From NCBI RefSeq assembly GCF_029633965.1, contig NZ_CP091277.1, positions 496,001-560,000 of the forward strand: 64,000 nt of DNA, in the 5' to 3' direction. The translations under genes and the position numbers were made by a program. Shown here piece by piece: positions 10,402-33,572 of this stretch; position 1 is the first letter of the stretch, and the number at the start of each line of letters is the position of its first letter. Source of the stretch: Methanogenium sp. S4BF (GTDB lineage: Archaea; Halobacteriota; Methanomicrobia; Methanomicrobiales; Methanomicrobiaceae). The notes beneath the pieces were generated by a model, which saw only the letters and a program-made list of their open reading frames with translations, was not told where the DNA came from and made no database searches.

Positions 10402-11454
10402 ATGCAACAACAAATAAAAATTGAAAACAATATAATTGGACCACAAAATCCCTGTTTCATTATCGCTGAGGCAGGTGTCAACCATAACGGAGATGTCGCT
10501 TTGGCAAAAAAACTCATCGATGCCGCATTTGAAGCGGGTGCTGATGCAGTTAAATTCCAGACATTTAAAGCCGAAAACATTGTCACCCCCACTGCTGAGA
10601 AGGCAGAATACCAGAAAATGAGAACAGGAACAAGTGAATCCCAATATGAGATGATAAAGAAACTTGAACTTTCTGAAGCTGATTTCTGGGATCTCTCGGA
10701 ATATGCAAAGAATGCAGGTATTCTCTTTTTGTCTACTCCATTTGACGAAGAGAGTGTTGATCTCCTGGATGAGATAGGTGTGCCTGCATTCAAGATACCT
10801 TCTGGAGAGATTACAAACTTCCCACTCCTAAAAAAAATTGCACAAAAGTCCATACCCATTATTTTGTCAACAGGAATGGCCACACTTGGTGAAGTTGAGG
10901 AATCGGTAAACTATCTTAAGAAATATGGTGCAGAAGAAATCATTCTTCTTCACTGCACCACCAGTTATCCTGCCCCAGTGAAATCTGTGAATCTGCGTGC
11001 AATGGATACATTGCGCTGTGCATTTCAGATCCAGGTCGGATACTCCGATCACACGGAGGGGATCACAGTTCCTATTGCAGCTGTTGCCAAGGGTGCATGT
11101 GTCATTGAGAAACATTTTACTCTTGACAAGACTCTCCCCGGCCCAGATCATAAAGCCTCTCTTGATCCTCAAGAACTTACCATGATGGTGAAGGCGATAC
11201 GGGATGTGGAACATGCCCTTGGTAACGGGATAAAGGGTCCAAATGATGAGGAAAAATCAATAAAAACGGTTTCCCGGAGAAGTATCGTCGCAAAACGGGA
11301 TCTAAAAGAAGGAGATATTCTGACCGAGGAGGATTTGACAATAAAAAGACCTGGAACCGGAATTGAACCAAAGTATGTTGATTCAATCGTGCAAAAGAAG
11401 ACAAGGATTTTGATTCGAAAAGATCAAGTGATTACATGGGATATGATTGAATGA
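10402..11454 (+). CDS. neuB: Nonulosonic acid synthase (NeuB/LegI family)
   Basis: A 350-residue TIM-barrel synthase with a C-terminal SAF (antifreeze-like) domain from about residue 285. Family motifs are AEAGVNHNGD, AVKFQTFKAEN, GVPAFKIPSGEI and LSTGMATLGEVE, with SRRSIVAKRDLKEGDILTEE in the SAF domain. It condenses a 2,4-diacetamido-2,4,6-trideoxy-mannose or ManNAc with phosphoenolpyruvate to a nine-carbon sugar acid. ATG at 10402 is chosen over ATG 10396 because CAGGAG at 10388-10393 is 8 bases away from it. The last four bases overlap the next gene (ATGA), indicating coupled translation. Confidence 0.9.
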   Translation: MQQQIKIENNIIGPQNPCFIIAEAGVNHNGDVALAKKLIDAAFEAGADAVKFQTFKAENIVTPTAEKAEYQKMRTGTSESQYEMIKKLELSEADFWDLSEYAKNAGILFLSTPFDEESVDLLDEIGVPAFKIPSGEITNFPLLKKIAQKSIPIILSTGMATLGEVEESVNYLKKYGAEEIILLHCTTSYPAPVKSVNLRAMDTLRCAFQIQVGYSDHTEGITVPIAAVAKGACVIEKHFTLDKTLPGPDHKASLDPQELTMMVKAIRDVEHALGNGIKGPNDEEKSIKTVSRRSIVAKRDLKEGDILTEEDLTIKRPGTGIEPKYVDSIVQKKTRILIRKDQVITWDMIE

Positions 11455-12590
11455 AACGTAAAATACTATATATTAGCGGTACTCGGGCAGATTATGGTCT
11501 GATGCGGTCGGTTTTACATCAAATTCATAATCATGAGTCTCTTTCCCTTGATATTGCTGTCACCGGCATGCATCTGATGGATGAATTCGGGACGACAGTT
11601 GATGAAATAAAAAAAGATGGATTCAATTATCATATTGTCGATGTTCGGTATGATGCCGATACGAAAGAATCTATGGTCCAATTTATTGGAAAATTTATTC
11701 AGCATCTCACACCACTTATTCAAAAAATTAAACCGGATATTATTCTTGTTCTCGGGGATAGAGGAGAGATGCTTGGTGGAGCTATTGTCGGAGCATACCT
11801 GAGCATTCCCGTTGCCCATATACATGGGGGAGAGGTCACGTCCACTGTTGATGACCTTGCACGACATGCAATAACGAAATTATCCCAGATTCATTTCCCT
11901 GCCACTGAAGAAAGTGCACAGCGAATTCACCATATGGGAGAGGACCCGTCACAAATATTTGTTGTCGGTGCCCCGGGTCTGGATCAAATTCTCCATGAAC
12001 CACTACTGCAGCCTGAAGAAATTGAGAAAAAATACCATCTGAATTTTTCGGATAAGGTACTACTTGTCGTTCAGCATCCTGTAACACTTGAAACCGATCA
12101 AGCCCCAGAACAAATGAGAGAGACATTGGAGGCAGTATCAGTATTTCAATACCAGACGGTCATCATATATCCAAATGCTGATGCAGGAGGGAGAGGGATG
12201 ATCGATGTGATCAAAGAATATGAGCATCTACCCTTTATCCAGACATACAAAAGCATCTCACACAAGGATTACCTCAGTTTAATGCAGCATTCATCTGTTT
12301 TAATTGGAAATTCAAGCAGTGGCATCATCGAAGCCCCTTCGTTTGGACTTCCTGTAATTAATATTGGGTCTCGACAAGAGGGAAGAGAGAGAGGGGATAA
12401 TATTGTAGAGGCTGAATACAACCGGAATTCAATAGTATCGGCAATAAAATATGTATTAAATGATCAATCATTTATATACAAGGTCAATTTGAAAATAAAT
12501 CCCTATGGTGATGGTTGCTCTGGTAAAAAAATTACGAACATCCTGAATTCAGTAACGATAAACAATCAATTATTGCAGAAACGGAGATAA
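11451..12590 (+). CDS. neuC: Hydrolysing UDP-sugar 2-epimerase (NeuC/LegG family)
   Basis: A 379-residue GT-B-fold epimerase of the NeuC branch. N-terminal SGTRADYGLMRSVL, LGDRGEMLGGA and HIHGGEVT, and C-terminal GNSSSGIIEAPSFGLPVINI, are the family signatures. It removes UDP and inverts C2: UDP-GlcNAc to ManNAc in the sialic pathway, or UDP-2,4-diacetamido-trideoxyglucose to the free trideoxymannose in the legionaminic pathway. Because a dehydratase, an aminotransferase and an acetyltransferase follow in the same operon, the LegG role is more likely. It overlaps the neuB-like gene by 4 bases. Confidence 0.88.
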   Translation: MKRKILYISGTRADYGLMRSVLHQIHNHESLSLDIAVTGMHLMDEFGTTVDEIKKDGFNYHIVDVRYDADTKESMVQFIGKFIQHLTPLIQKIKPDIILVLGDRGEMLGGAIVGAYLSIPVAHIHGGEVTSTVDDLARHAITKLSQIHFPATEESAQRIHHMGEDPSQIFVVGAPGLDQILHEPLLQPEEIEKKYHLNFSDKVLLVVQHPVTLETDQAPEQMRETLEAVSVFQYQTVIIYPNADAGGRGMIDVIKEYEHLPFIQTYKSISHKDYLSLMQHSSVLIGNSSSGIIEAPSFGLPVINIGSRQEGRERGDNIVEAEYNRNSIVSAIKYVLNDQSFIYKVNLKINPYGDGCSGKKITNILNSVTINNQLLQKRR

Positions 12591-25451: not shown

Positions 25452-27674
25452 CTAATCTGTTATTGTATCCACGTTTATTGCAACAGGCAATCTTTTTTCA
25501 ATAGATTCTCGTGCTTTTAATGTCAATAATGTCGAAGACACAGAGTCAGGGAAATTGTCCTCAAATCCTCTCAAAAAAACGTTAAGTTCTTCAGGGAATC
25601 CCTTATCCTGGGAAAGCCATCTCTTTGTCTTCGTCTCCTTACCGTTCTTCACCAGACGCAGTTCGCGGAAATCGGTCAGGACGCCGACCATGCCGTCGCA
25701 GAAGACTTCGACCTGCTCCTTTGAGTAAGCCTTGTCGCCGAGAGTGGTATAGGTGACTGTGCCGATTGAACCGTCGTCCAGTGAGATCACGATCTGGAGG
25801 TTGGAGAACCGGTTTATTGAACCGGCGGTTGAGGGGTCGACAGACTTTGCATACACTTCAATGGGTTTTGCGACAGTCAGGCAGAGGATGTAATCGATGA
25901 AATGGCAGCACTCAGAGATGAGCATGCCGCCACCCTGCTCCTCGTCATTGACCCAGAGGTCAGCAGGAATTGGTCCGGTATTTACCCGGTAGTGGATGAC
26001 CATGGGAGAACTCCGGTTCCTGAAGAAATCGCGGAGCTGCCCGGTGAGGGAGGAGTATCTGCGGTTAAAGCCAACCTGAACGTTTTTGTCCGAATTCTTC
26101 CAGGCTTCAGCAACTACCTCCAGATCTTCCATATTTGTTGCAAGGGGTTTTTCCACAAAGACGTCTTTCCCGGCTTCAAGGGCCTCGATTGTCATCTTTG
26201 CATGGAGGTCATTTCTTGTTGCAATGATGACTGCATCAATTTCCTTGTCTTCCAGGATTTTTTTGTAGTCAGTTGTGCAGTACGAGAACCCAAACTTTTT
26301 TCCGGCGGACTGGGCACTCAGGCCAGTGGATGTGGCAAGACCTCTGAATTCTACGGGAAGTTTTGCAAGATTTGGATAGAGGGCACTCATCGCCTGAATG
26401 CCGGCACCAATGCAGCCGATAGTTTTTATTGGAGAATTCGTTTTTGTAGTTGTATTTTTATTTGAATTTTCATTTTGAATTTTATCTGGATTTGTATTTT
26501 TGTTTGCATGTGATGGTGTATCTGATTTTGAAGGGTTCAGGTATACTACTGTTGAATTGTTCTCAGAAGTATCCGGATTATATTTCAGGAGAATTCCCAG
26601 GTATGGCTCTTTTCTGGATGTGATGAGGTCGTATGCATCCGTAGCCTCTTCAATTGTAAATTCATGGGTGACAATTTTTTGAAGATTGATTTTTCCTTCT
26701 GAGATGAGTTCGAGGAAAGAATCCATATTCCTCTTCTCAGTCCAACGGACAATAATTGGATAATCAATGCCTTTTTCTTCATAAGACCGGTCATATCTCC
26801 CGGGGCCATATGACTTTGAGATAACAAATTCTGCTTCTTTTTCGTAATATTTGTCTCTTGGAATGTTGAGTCCGACAGCACCCACAGCGACAACACGACC
26901 TTTCTCCCTGACAAGATCACCGGCAACTTCTATCGGTCCATTGGAGGAGGTGGCAGCCGTAATGATGACTTTGTCTGCACCAAACGGGGAAAATGAAGCC
27001 ATTCTCTCTTCAAGTCCGTCATAATTGGATGCAATATCTGCACCAAGTTCGAGAGAGAGAGCGATCTTTTTCGGGTCAACATCAATGCCAAAAACCCGAC
27101 ACCCCGCAGCCTTTGCTATCTGAACACTCAGCAGACCGACGAGGCCAAGACCGATGACAACCACTCTCTCCCCAACGGTAACTTCGGCATTCCGGATACC
27201 CTGCATGGCAATTGACCCGACGGTAGTAAATGCGGCATCTTCAAGGCTGACGTTGTCAGGGACTTTTATCGTAAGATTCTTTGGTATGGACACATATTCC
27301 GCATGGCTGGCATATCCTGCACCTGCACACGCCACTCTATCTCCAACGCTAAATTCAGAGACATTTGAATCTGTTACAATGCCTGCACAGCTATATCCCA
27401 GAGCCTCTGGTTTTGCAAGCCTGCTTACTGCCTGCTGGTAGGCTGAAAGCACCCCATCCGTCTTTGCCTTATTGATAACCTTCTGTGCCAAATCCGGCCG
27501 TTCTCTTGCTTTCCCGAGTTTTGACTTATCTGCAAGAGAGAGAAGAGATGATTCTGTACCTGCAGATATCAGGGAAAAGTGATTTTTTACAACAACTCCT
27601 TTTTTGAGAGAAGGAACAGGCACATCTTCCACTGAAATAGCCCCTGAATTGAGATCTAATAATACTTGTTTCAT
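25452..27674 (-). CDS. Bi-domain oxidoreductase: zinc-type alcohol dehydrogenase fused to Gfo/Idh/MocA dehydrogenase
   Basis: A 740-residue fusion. Residues 1-365 are a medium-chain dehydrogenase with the NAD loop VVVIGLGLVGLLSVQIAKAA near 171-190. Residues 416-740 are a Gfo/Idh/MocA protein with IGCIGAGIQAMS near 419 and the EKPLATN motif. Between them, residues about 368-417 form a low-complexity linker rich in Asn, Thr, Ser and Lys. Fusions of this kind are common in bacterial and archaeal glycan clusters and are thought to act in sequence on one nucleotide or lipid-linked sugar; the substrate is unknown. It overlaps the toroid-protein gene upstream by 4 bases. Confidence 0.87.
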   Translation of the reverse strand: MKQVLLDLNSGAISVEDVPVPSLKKGVVVKNHFSLISAGTESSLLSLADKSKLGKARERPDLAQKVINKAKTDGVLSAYQQAVSRLAKPEALGYSCAGIVTDSNVSEFSVGDRVACAGAGYASHAEYVSIPKNLTIKVPDNVSLEDAAFTTVGSIAMQGIRNAEVTVGERVVVIGLGLVGLLSVQIAKAAGCRVFGIDVDPKKIALSLELGADIASNYDGLEERMASFSPFGADKVIITAATSSNGPIEVAGDLVREKGRVVAVGAVGLNIPRDKYYEKEAEFVISKSYGPGRYDRSYEEKGIDYPIIVRWTEKRNMDSFLELISEGKINLQKIVTHEFTIEEATDAYDLITSRKEPYLGILLKYNPDTSENNSTVVYLNPSKSDTPSHANKNTNPDKIQNENSNKNTTTKTNSPIKTIGCIGAGIQAMSALYPNLAKLPVEFRGLATSTGLSAQSAGKKFGFSYCTTDYKKILEDKEIDAVIIATRNDLHAKMTIEALEAGKDVFVEKPLATNMEDLEVVAEAWKNSDKNVQVGFNRRYSSLTGQLRDFFRNRSSPMVIHYRVNTGPIPADLWVNDEEQGGGMLISECCHFIDYILCLTVAKPIEVYAKSVDPSTAGSINRFSNLQIVISLDDGSIGTVTYTTLGDKAYSKEQVEVFCDGMVGVLTDFRELRLVKNGKETKTKRWLSQDKGFPEELNVFLRGFEDNFPDSVSSTLLTLKARESIEKRLPVAINVDTITD

Positions 27675-30094: not shown

Positions 30095-31354
30095 TTAGTA
30101 GTCAGATACGTTCTCTGAACCATCACCAAGGATTTTACAGGTAAATCCCGCTGCCTTCCACGTATCGGTATCAAGAATATTTCTCGTATCATAGAGATTT
30201 TTATTCCTCATCTGAAGAGATGAGGGGTCGATATCTCTGAAGAGATCATGGTCGGTAACAAGGACGATGCAATCGCTGTCTTTGGTTGCTTCTTCTAAGC
30301 TGGTTATCGGGTATGGGAATGTGGTAACATGCGGATCATAGATTCTGACCGTATATCCTTCATTCTCTGCCAGTCGAATCAGTTTTAATGCCGGAGTTGC
30401 CCGCCAGTCATCGACATTTCCCTTATATGCCACACCAAGTATGGTAATGACTGGTTTCTGTACGCCGTGTACAATACTTCGAACCACACTATGGACATAG
30501 TTTGGCATATTGTCATTAATGGAGCGTGCCAGTGAAACCATCCGGGTTTTCGTTGACGTCTCTGTTAAAAACCACGGATCAATTGCAATGCAGTGTCCGC
30601 CAACACCGGGTCCTGGTTTGAGGATATTGACTCTTGGATGACGGTTTGCAAGTGATATCGCTTCCCAGATATTGATGCCAAATTCATCTCCCATTCGGGC
30701 AAATTCATTGGCGATGGCAATACTGACGTCCCGGTAGGTATTCTCCATCAGTTTAACAAATTCAGCGGTGCGAACCGTAGTTTCATAGAGATTGCCTTCG
30801 ACAAATGATCCATAGATATCCTTTGCAAATGCTGCTGATTCTGGATTGTTTGCTCCGACAATCCTGTCATTATGAATCATTTCATGAAGTGTTTTACCTG
30901 GTATCGCACGTTCCGGGCAATGGACATAGGAAAATTCTCCTGGGTTTAACCCATATTGTGAAAGAATAGGAAAAACAACATTCTCACTTGCTCCGGGTGA
31001 GACGGTTGATTCCAGAATGACCATATTTCCTGCTTTTAAATGTGATGCAATCATCTCTGCAGCACTTCTGACATATTTCAGGTCTGCAATTTTGAGTGCT
31101 TCTTCAAGAGGTGTGGGTACCGCAATGAGAAATACATCCGCCTCTTCAACCTCGGAAACGGCACGGAAATTACCTTTCACTTTCTCAAAAAGTTCATTCA
31201 GCCCATCCTCTTCAAAAGGAAGTTTACCATTGTTTAAAATCTGAACAATTTTCTCATTTACATCAACGCCAACGACATTATGGTGCTGTGCAAAAAGGAG
31301 AGCTGTTGGAAGGCCAATATATCCAAGGCCAAGTACGCATATCTTCACGGTCAT
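30095..31354 (-). CDS. wecC: UDP-N-acetyl-D-mannosamine dehydrogenase (WecC)
   Basis: A protein of about 419 residues from ATG 31354. VKICVLGLGYIGLPTALLFA is the NAD-binding N-terminus, followed by AVPTPLEE, ESTVSPGASENVV, HCPERAIPGKTL and the catalytic cysteine in GPGVGGHCIAIDPWFL. The C-terminal domain has ILGVAYKGNVDDWRATPAL. It oxidises UDP-ManNAc to UDP-ManNAcA. The frame is open upstream to 31405, but that would run into the wecB-like gene, and the family start is ATG 31354, one base after the wecB stop codon. A second, TviB-like dehydrogenase gene at 6006 suggests two different uronic acids. Confidence 0.9.
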   Translation of the reverse strand: MTVKICVLGLGYIGLPTALLFAQHHNVVGVDVNEKIVQILNNGKLPFEEDGLNELFEKVKGNFRAVSEVEEADVFLIAVPTPLEEALKIADLKYVRSAAEMIASHLKAGNMVILESTVSPGASENVVFPILSQYGLNPGEFSYVHCPERAIPGKTLHEMIHNDRIVGANNPESAAFAKDIYGSFVEGNLYETTVRTAEFVKLMENTYRDVSIAIANEFARMGDEFGINIWEAISLANRHPRVNILKPGPGVGGHCIAIDPWFLTETSTKTRMVSLARSINDNMPNYVHSVVRSIVHGVQKPVITILGVAYKGNVDDWRATPALKLIRLAENEGYTVRIYDPHVTTFPYPITSLEEATKDSDCIVLVTDHDLFRDIDPSSLQMRNKNLYDTRNILDTDTWKAAGFTCKILGDGSENVSDY

Positions 31355-31355
31355 T

Positions 31356-32558
31356 TTAGTCATCCATGTGTTCAATAAGGTATTCGCTGGATTTCTTCTC
31401 ACCATGTGGGTTATTCCAAGCTGTGTCTGGTTCTAACATATGTTTGGGGGAAGTTTCGATCATATTTTGAGTCGTTCCAGGAAGCACATTCGCCCCATCC
31501 AAATACATTATAATGTATTCGCTGGATTTCCCTCCACCATATGGGTTATTCCATGTTGCATATGTTTCTAATATCTGCTGGGAAGAAGTAATGATTTGAT
31601 TTCCATCTGTTCCAGCAAGCACATTCGCCCCAAAATTAACCGTTTCGGGCCGTTCTGTGTTGTCACGAAGGGTTACGCAGGGGACACCAAGAATGCATGC
31701 CTCTTCCTGGAGGCCGCCTGAGTCTGTCAGAATGAGTTTTGCATGAGCTTCCAGTTGTAGGAACTCCAGATATCCGAGCGGTTTGGTGATCGTGATGCCT
31801 TCCGGGGAGATATTGAATTCCTTCATCATCTTCTCAGTTCGTGGGTGCATCGGGAAGACGACCGGGAGCGAATATTCTTTTCCGATTGCGGTGATGCCAT
31901 TGATGATGCCCTGAAGGCGTTCTTTCACATCGACATTCTCTGCACGGTGTGCAGTGACGAGGAAATATTCTCCTGACCCGAGGTTCATTTCTTCCAGAAC
32001 ATTTGACTTCTCTCTGGAGATCTCAAGGTTCTGGTAGACTGCATCAACAACCGTGTTGCCGGTCACAAATATCTTCTCATTGGGGATGCCTTCCTTCAGA
32101 AGATAATTGCGTGATGTCTCTGTCGGTGCAAAAAGATAATCTGAGATATGGTCTGCTATAATCCGGTTTGTCTCTTCCGGCATTGTCCGGTCAAAACTTC
32201 TCAGCCCTGCTTCAACATGTCCCACCTTAATGTGAAGTTTTGATGCAGCAAGAGCTCCTGCCATAACGGTGTTAGTATCGCCTTGGACGAGAACCACATC
32301 GGGTTTTTCAGTTAGGAGGACTTTCTCAATACCTGTAAGAATTTTTGCTGTCTGTTCTCCATGTGTGCCGGAACCTACATCAAGGTTATACTTGGGCTCC
32401 GGGAGATTTAGATCTTCAAAAAACGCCCGATCCATCTCATACGAATAGTGCTGCCCGGTATGGAGAATGAAATAGTCAAGGTTTTGCCGGTCACATTCCC
32501 GGATGATCGGAGACATTTTTATGATCTCAGGCCGTGTTCCAAGGATGATTGCAATCAT
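31356..32558 (-). CDS. wecB: UDP-N-acetylglucosamine 2-epimerase (WecB), with duplicated C-terminal segment
   Basis: A 400-residue non-hydrolysing epimerase. ILGTRPEIIKMSPIIRECDR, HTGQHYSYEMD, VQGDTNTVMAGALAA, KVGHVEAGLRS and DSGGLQEEACILGVPC are the family signatures. It interconverts UDP-GlcNAc and UDP-ManNAc for WecC, whose gene follows directly. The C-terminus is odd: residues 310-354 and 355-399 are a tandem repeat of 45 residues (GANVLAGT... and GANVLPGT..., both with WNNP and KSSEY), about 25 of 45 identical. The second copy lies beyond the usual end of the enzyme. The gene lies directly beside the GT2 gene with no gap. Confidence 0.92.
   Translation of the reverse strand: MIAIILGTRPEIIKMSPIIRECDRQNLDYFILHTGQHYSYEMDRAFFEDLNLPEPKYNLDVGSGTHGEQTAKILTGIEKVLLTEKPDVVLVQGDTNTVMAGALAASKLHIKVGHVEAGLRSFDRTMPEETNRIIADHISDYLFAPTETSRNYLLKEGIPNEKIFVTGNTVVDAVYQNLEISREKSNVLEEMNLGSGEYFLVTAHRAENVDVKERLQGIINGITAIGKEYSLPVVFPMHPRTEKMMKEFNISPEGITITKPLGYLEFLQLEAHAKLILTDSGGLQEEACILGVPCVTLRDNTERPETVNFGANVLAGTDGNQIITSSQQILETYATWNNPYGGGKSSEYIIMYLDGANVLPGTTQNMIETSPKHMLEPDTAWNNPHGEKKSSEYLIEHMDD
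31362..31631 (-). repeat. 135-bp in-frame tandem duplication at the end of wecB
   Basis: Two consecutive units, 31497-31631 and 31362-31496, each encode 45 residues with GANVL at the start and WNNP then KSSEY toward the end. The copies have diverged at about 20 positions but kept length and frame, so the duplication is not recent and has been tolerated or kept. Confidence 0.85.
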
Positions 32559-33572
32559 TTAGATATTCCCTCCATCACCGGAGTAGCCTCTCATAATCTG
32601 CACCAGCGAATTTAGAATCAGCCCTGATGTAATCAGCATCAGGCCAAGAATGAGTGCTGCAACGGAGATAATGGCCATGGTATAATGGAATGTACCGTTG
32701 CGGTATAATTCTGAGAAGATATAGAGGCCCACTCCGCACCCGCTGAGAGCCAGGATGCTCCCCGGAATCCCGAAGAAGAGAAGTGGCCGCTTGTATCCGA
32801 TGACACCGACAATATCGGACATGATGTCGAATCCATGGCTCACCGGGTTCTTCTTGTGTTTGTGGGGTACTTCGTATCGCACAGAGATGGGAACCTCTGT
32901 GATTCTCATGCCATGGGAAACCATGTGGGTGATCATGTCTGTCTCAAGGCTGTAGCCGTTCGAGGTGAATTTACAGTTGCTGAGTGCACGCGGGCCTAAT
33001 GCACGGAAACCGGACTGGGAGTCTGTGCTTTTATAGGTTTTATTCACAGATGCAGATGGACTATCAGGTGCAGGTACGCCATCTGTGTTATTTCCATTCT
33101 CATTCCCATTTCCGGTGCCTTTGCTCTTTCCATTGCCGGACGCTGATGACACATTGGTTGCATAATTGAGGGTCTTCTGCCCAATCTGCCGGTAGGCAGG
33201 AATATCATTTCCTTCGCCAATGAAGCGTGAACCGATGACAAGGTCTGCCTCATCAGAAAGGATAGGGGCAGCAACGATAGGGATCTCATCCGGATTGTGC
33301 TGGCCGTCCGCGTCAATCATGACAACTGCTTCGGCTCCCATATCCTGGGCTGCCTTGAAGCCGGTTTTGATCGCCTGGGCCTTTCCCTGATTATTGATGT
33401 GCTCAATGACAGTGGCACCCGCAAGGCGTGCAATCTCAGCGGTGTCATCAGCAGACCCATCGTCAACGACAATTACCTCTCGGGAATATTTCAGGCTTCC
33501 CAATACAACACTGCCGATGGTAATGCCTTCATTGTATGCAGGAATTACAGTAACAATTGTCTTTTTTTGCAT
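32559..33572 (-). CDS. Polyprenyl-phosphate glycosyltransferase (GT2, DPM1/AglJ-like) with low-complexity insert
   Basis: A 337-residue GT2 protein. VTVIPAYNEGITIGSVVL is the N-terminus, EVIVVDDGSADDTAE and VVMIDADGQHNPDEI carry the nucleotide and metal aspartates, and two C-terminal hydrophobic segments (near 260-285 and 300-325) anchor it in the membrane. It likely charges dolichyl phosphate with the first sugar of the glycan. Between ATN (residue 140) and KSTDSQSGFRAL (181) an insert of about 38 residues rich in Gly, Asn and Ser interrupts a normally short loop. It is the first gene of the wecB-wecC direction. Confidence 0.87.
   Translation of the reverse strand: MQKKTIVTVIPAYNEGITIGSVVLGSLKYSREVIVVDDGSADDTAEIARLAGATVIEHINNQGKAQAIKTGFKAAQDMGAEAVVMIDADGQHNPDEIPIVAAPILSDEADLVIGSRFIGEGNDIPAYRQIGQKTLNYATNVSSASGNGKSKGTGNGNENGNNTDGVPAPDSPSASVNKTYKSTDSQSGFRALGPRALSNCKFTSNGYSLETDMITHMVSHGMRITEVPISVRYEVPHKHKKNPVSHGFDIMSDIVGVIGYKRPLLFFGIPGSILALSGCGVGLYIFSELYRNGTFHYTMAIISVAALILGLMLITSGLILNSLVQIMRGYSGDGGNI

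Follow-up and report, generated by a model that had tools for sequence, protein, structure and literature searches.

The wecB locus and its product

The 64,000-nucleotide stretch of Methanogenium sp. S4BF analysed here (the window) carries, on its reverse strand, a wecB gene followed by a wecC-like gene (Table 1). The gene upstream of wecB (32559-33572, reverse strand) encodes an AglJ-like GT2 glycosyltransferase whose best NCBIfam match is split in two by a low-complexity, Gly-, Asn- and Ser-rich insert (SASGNGKSKGTGNGNENGNNTDG...). Further along the same strand, positions 25452-27674 encode an apparent fusion of 740 residues, in which an Asn/Thr/Ser-rich linker connects two halves, one resembling an alcohol dehydrogenase and the other an inositol dehydrogenase (Gfo/Idh/MocA).

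Table 1. Features at the wecB locus (positions within the window).
Feature	Position	Strand	Basis
wecB, non-hydrolysing UDP-N-acetylglucosamine 2-epimerase, 400 aa	31356..32558	-	TIGR00236, PF02350, 4neq/4nes
Copy 1, 45-codon unit, residues 310-354, native C-terminus	31497..31631	-	In-frame alignment, profile score, AlphaFold
Copy 2, 45-codon unit, residues 355-399, added tail (the more diverged copy)	31362..31496	-	Identity to copy 1, 31.0 bits, AlphaFold
18-base perfect palindrome AATACATTATAATGTATT, end of copy 1, next to the junction of the copies	31502..31519		Palindrome scan, 64 kb
wecC-like UDP-ManNAc dehydrogenase	30095..31378	-	TIGR03026, 409 bits; stretch scanned from 31378, mechanical ORF from 31405

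The assignment of the protein to WecB in an earlier note on this DNA is borne out by its score of 458.5 bits against TIGR00236 (curated cut-off, 210.15 bits), where residues 2-351 align with positions 3-360 of the 366 in the profile, and by a PF02350 (Epimerase_2) match of 410 bits over residues 21-353. Both matches end at residue 351-353, that is, 47-49 residues short of the end of the protein. The best solved relative by sequence is the UDP-GlcNAc 2-epimerase of Methanocaldococcus jannaschii (4neq/4nes; E 5.7e-142), and a Foldseek search with the AlphaFold model of WecB (mean pLDDT 88, pTM 0.83) retrieves 4nes with probability 1.00, in agreement with a GT-B fold of two Rossmann-like domains. 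The M. jannaschii enzyme has fold, family and active-site motifs in common with WecB of the window, but it possesses a single C-terminal unit and lacks the tail described below.

The active site can be compared with that of the Thermus thermophilus UDP-GlcNAc3NAcA 2-epimerase (8sxv series), which comprises Arg12, Lys17, Asp98, Glu120, His208, Ser284, Glu290, Arg302, Glu306 and Trp307, the last of these occupying the place of a conserved, sugar-contacting arginine (PMC10622841). The contacts reported in that study map to R9, K14, D94, E116, H204, S280, E286, R298, E302 and R303 of the window protein, all of which, the TERPE arginine among them, are kept and are invariant or nearly so across the family. 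The two enzymes share the GT-B fold; they differ in that the T. thermophilus protein acts on another substrate, has Trp307 where WecB of the window has R303, and lacks the tail. Judged by its sequence, the window enzyme is classed as an ordinary non-hydrolysing UDP-GlcNAc 2-epimerase and, since active site and fold are intact, it presumably works as usual.

A tandem repeat at the end of wecB

The 3' end of wecB (31362-31631, reverse strand) consists of two adjacent, head-to-tail copies of 135 bases each, followed by a single codon (D400) and the stop (31356-31361). The copies align without gaps and are identical at 98 of 135 bases and 25 of 45 residues, the remaining 37 bases and 20 residues being different, and GANVL, WNNP and KSSEY occur in both. 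These results agree with the earlier description of a tandem 45-residue duplication in this interval, exact in its coordinates, with the three motifs in each copy and roughly 20 substitutions between them. Not one of 20,000 shuffles of copy 2 attained the observed identity, and Tandem Repeats Finder independently reports a period of 135 with 1.9 copies and a score of 316, by far the strongest array in the 64 kb. The repeat is hence real, and an assembly artefact is unlikely, given the 37 base differences between the copies and a genome assembled as a single contig.

The earlier note had also placed residues of the UDP site within the duplicated unit, a claim that does not survive comparison with the T. 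thermophilus enzyme. All the ligand residues of the latter map to positions at or before R303, and the unit starts at G310, seven residues on. No UDP-site residue is therefore duplicated.

The native C-terminus and the added tail

The proposal that the unit corresponds to the normal end of the enzyme, with the second copy as a tail, is upheld by profile scores, family-like sites and structure prediction alike. Scored against a profile of the C-termini of relatives, copy 1 reaches 52.7 bits and copy 2 reaches 31.0 bits; genuine relatives range from 24 to 81 bits, so that copy 1 falls inside the range and copy 2 near its bottom. Of the sites at which the two disagree, 14 have the family-like residue in copy 1 and 5 have it in copy 2. 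Copy 2 lacks a glycine conserved in 96% of the family (K388, against G343 in copy 1) and has acquired three prolines (360, 371 and 377), the one at 371 lying within a stretch that forms a helix in copy 1. In the AlphaFold model, copy 1 is placed confidently and provides the native last strand and helices (a strand, helix 319-331, the W-x-N-P loop and the C-terminal helix 345-355). Residues 358-400 show no secondary structure (pLDDT 32-35), which is weak evidence given that no row of the 55-sequence alignment supplied to AlphaFold spans copy 2. The earlier note had suggested structure prediction as a check for swapping with, or capping of, the native C-terminus by the tail; the model shows no docking, with copy 2 left unplaced.

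The opposite arrangement, in which copy 2 would be the working C-terminus and copy 1 a looped-out insert, gains something from the fact that a WecB in which copy 2 replaces copy 1 still reaches 620 bits, compared with 630, and from M374, K372 and E396 of copy 2, which are more family-like than their counterparts. It is nonetheless barely credible, for copy 1 is family-like at most of the differing sites and has the higher profile score, AlphaFold picks copy 1, and the proline and lysine changes of copy 2 suit the native fold poorly. Copy 1 is the native C-terminus and copy 2 an added tail. Copy 1 would thus complete an ordinary GT-B-fold epimerase, and copy 2 would form a flexible, probably unstructured C-terminal extension with no catalytic or ligand residues; we infer that this tail is disordered and dispensable.

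Distribution among relatives

As the earlier note had advised, the protein was aligned with WecB of related species, and the tail was found in no relative. Among 232 genomes of the order, only the window genome aligns over both copies, all other stop-free matches ending inside or shortly past copy 1; among 393 genomes of the phylum (202 with homologues), it is again the only one, in the matches listed, to cover the whole 164-residue query. A second C-terminal unit was likewise sought in about 110 relatives read individually, each of which has a single C-terminus. The tail is hence absent from the sister lineages covered by these three sets, and the repeat is restricted to the window genome among the genomes searched. 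In L055 and L068, alignments reaching residues 386 and 383 had suggested traces of a second unit after wecB, but the stretches concerned lie past the stop and hold no such unit.

No close wecB orthologue was found in six other species of the genus. A precedent for a duplicated tail in UDP-GlcNAc 2-epimerase was found neither in the genomes searched nor in the literature on intragenic and partial gene duplication, and the sequence of the copy junction has no match in viral contigs. The nearest relatives, L002 and L003 (match of about 72-77%), and also L008, have unrelated inserts, about 8-20 residues long (e.g. FVDCRETDDSAKPESPDNK), just ahead of the W-x-N-P loop; changes of length are therefore tolerated in the C-terminal region of WecB.

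Probable origin of the repeat by duplication

The two copies are nearer to each other (98 bases, 25 residues) than to any fetched relative, the most that any relative shares being 90 bases and 21 residues with copy 1, and 89 bases and 18 residues with copy 2. The most economical account is therefore that 135 bases from the 3' end of wecB were copied, head to tail and in frame, within this lineage of the Methanomicrobiales. The repeat has the properties of an in-frame partial (intragenic) tandem duplication, namely adjacent, direct and diverged copies made of whole codons, closer to each other than to their homologues, with one copy supernumerary, and it differs from known cases of this mutation class by its place in wecB alone.

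Alternatively, copy 2 might stem from another, diverged allele of wecB whose 3' end was joined on by recombination. The 27% nucleotide divergence between the copies could be older than their joining, and wecB, to which no close orthologue is known from other species of the genus searched, lies within a variable glycan cluster. Against this origin, which we consider improbable, stand the greater mutual similarity of the copies and the presence in both of the family-rare K-S-S-E-Y and of the first N of W-N-N-P. Moreover, no other source of the unit was found within the genome, where the search returned only a weak 26-base chance match and a self-palindrome. The perfect palindrome at the end of copy 1 (Table 1) is the only one of at least 16 bases in the window; it is missing from copy 2 and is possibly due to chance.

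Outside the window, the same chromosome contains two wecB-like fragments (L032 and L034, at G000:C1:844731-845051 and 861423-861842), one of which spans residues 3-109 only and the other of which is a weak match with six internal stops.

Reading frame and divergence of the tail

The end of wecB is also the beginning of wecC, as the likely ATG starts of the latter overlap or directly follow the wecB stop. Across this junction (GATGACTAAAATGACC), the TAA stop overlaps one candidate wecC start, ATGACTAAA, and lies 1 base before a second, ATGACC. The adjacency of the two genes, often with overlap, is kept in Methanoculleus and other relatives, and a scan for sigma-70-type promoters and terminators, a model that is not archaeal, yielded none within wecB. 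Translation of the two genes is presumably coupled, in which case a frame-breaking change or a premature stop in wecB would uncouple wecC. Because a frame break would shift the stop off the wecC start, the frame of wecB is probably kept, at least in part, on account of wecC.

This bears on the argument, made in the earlier note, that a tail conserved in length and frame is tolerated or useful. In neutral simulations, 29-48% of tails are stop-free, so that an intact frame does not prove a function, and the overlap with the wecC start offers a further reason for its retention; the argument therefore does not speak for use. Under the neutral indel rates assumed, 135 bases would stay free of indels with a probability of about 0.03-0.26, and the absence of indels is mild evidence.

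The same note had regarded the tail as a neutral accident should close relatives lack it and the copies show no constraint. The first part holds. As for the second, comparison of the copies by the method of Nei and Gojobori (NG86) gives a dS of 0.47, a dN of 0.31 and a ratio of 0.65, which does not differ from 1 (Fisher P = 0.47). The outcome falls on the neutral side, but 45 codons afford little power and weak constraint may exist. Neutral simulation with 37 differences leads to an expectation of 22.1 +/- 2.2 identical residues, compared with 25 observed (P = 0.14). Positive selection, considered because the codon differs at only 3 of the 25 identical residues, finds no support in either NG86 or simulation. 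The divergence of the copies is indistinguishable from neutral, and substitutions in copy 2 would be accumulating at a near-neutral rate, within the low statistical power of these data.

The most probable of the alternatives is a functional tail, kept by selection. Copy 2 would then dock on the enzyme, where it could act as a cap, exchange with the native C-terminal helix (of its own or of the partner subunit) or damp the closure of the domains. In this respect, the three longest identical blocks between the copies fall on GANVL, WNNP and KSSEY and add up to 43 bases against 29.7 expected, making them more clustered than under a uniform neutral model (P = 0.0135, one of several tests and uncorrected); such clustering could reflect constraint or local gene conversion. 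Of the 9 sites with a conservation of at least 90% across the family, copy 2 retains 7; it is also still matched by the family profile and has suffered no indels. However, differences between the copies are not significantly rarer at family-conserved than at variable sites (P = 0.09 and 0.24), dN/dS is not below 1, the equivalent of G343 is lost and prolines have been gained, one of them in what is a helix in copy 1, AlphaFold shows no docking and the tail is missing from all relatives examined. A functional tail is possible but unsupported, the clustered blocks and the lack of indels being weak hints of constraint, and on balance we regard it as unlikely. Less likely still would be a regulatory role, in which the added tail competes with the native C-terminal helix or takes its place, and thereby adjusts domain closure or dimer contacts in WecB.

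We favour, with a probability of roughly three in four, a lineage-specific, in-frame partial tandem duplication whose second copy is a tail that is tolerated rather than used and probably near neutral. So read, the locus would offer a clean single case of partial gene duplication in frame, with native and drifting copies adjoining, set in an operon where the start of the next gene constrains the reading frame. It would also serve as a warning that a repeated C-terminus which has stayed in frame is not necessarily functional, and it would bring nothing new for the enzyme itself unless the tail proves active.

The glycan region to which wecB belongs contains a second 2-epimerase gene (11451-12590, forward strand), the product of which is of the hydrolysing NeuC/NnaA type (TIGR03568, 441 bits) and suggests the synthesis of nonulosonic (sialic-like) acids.
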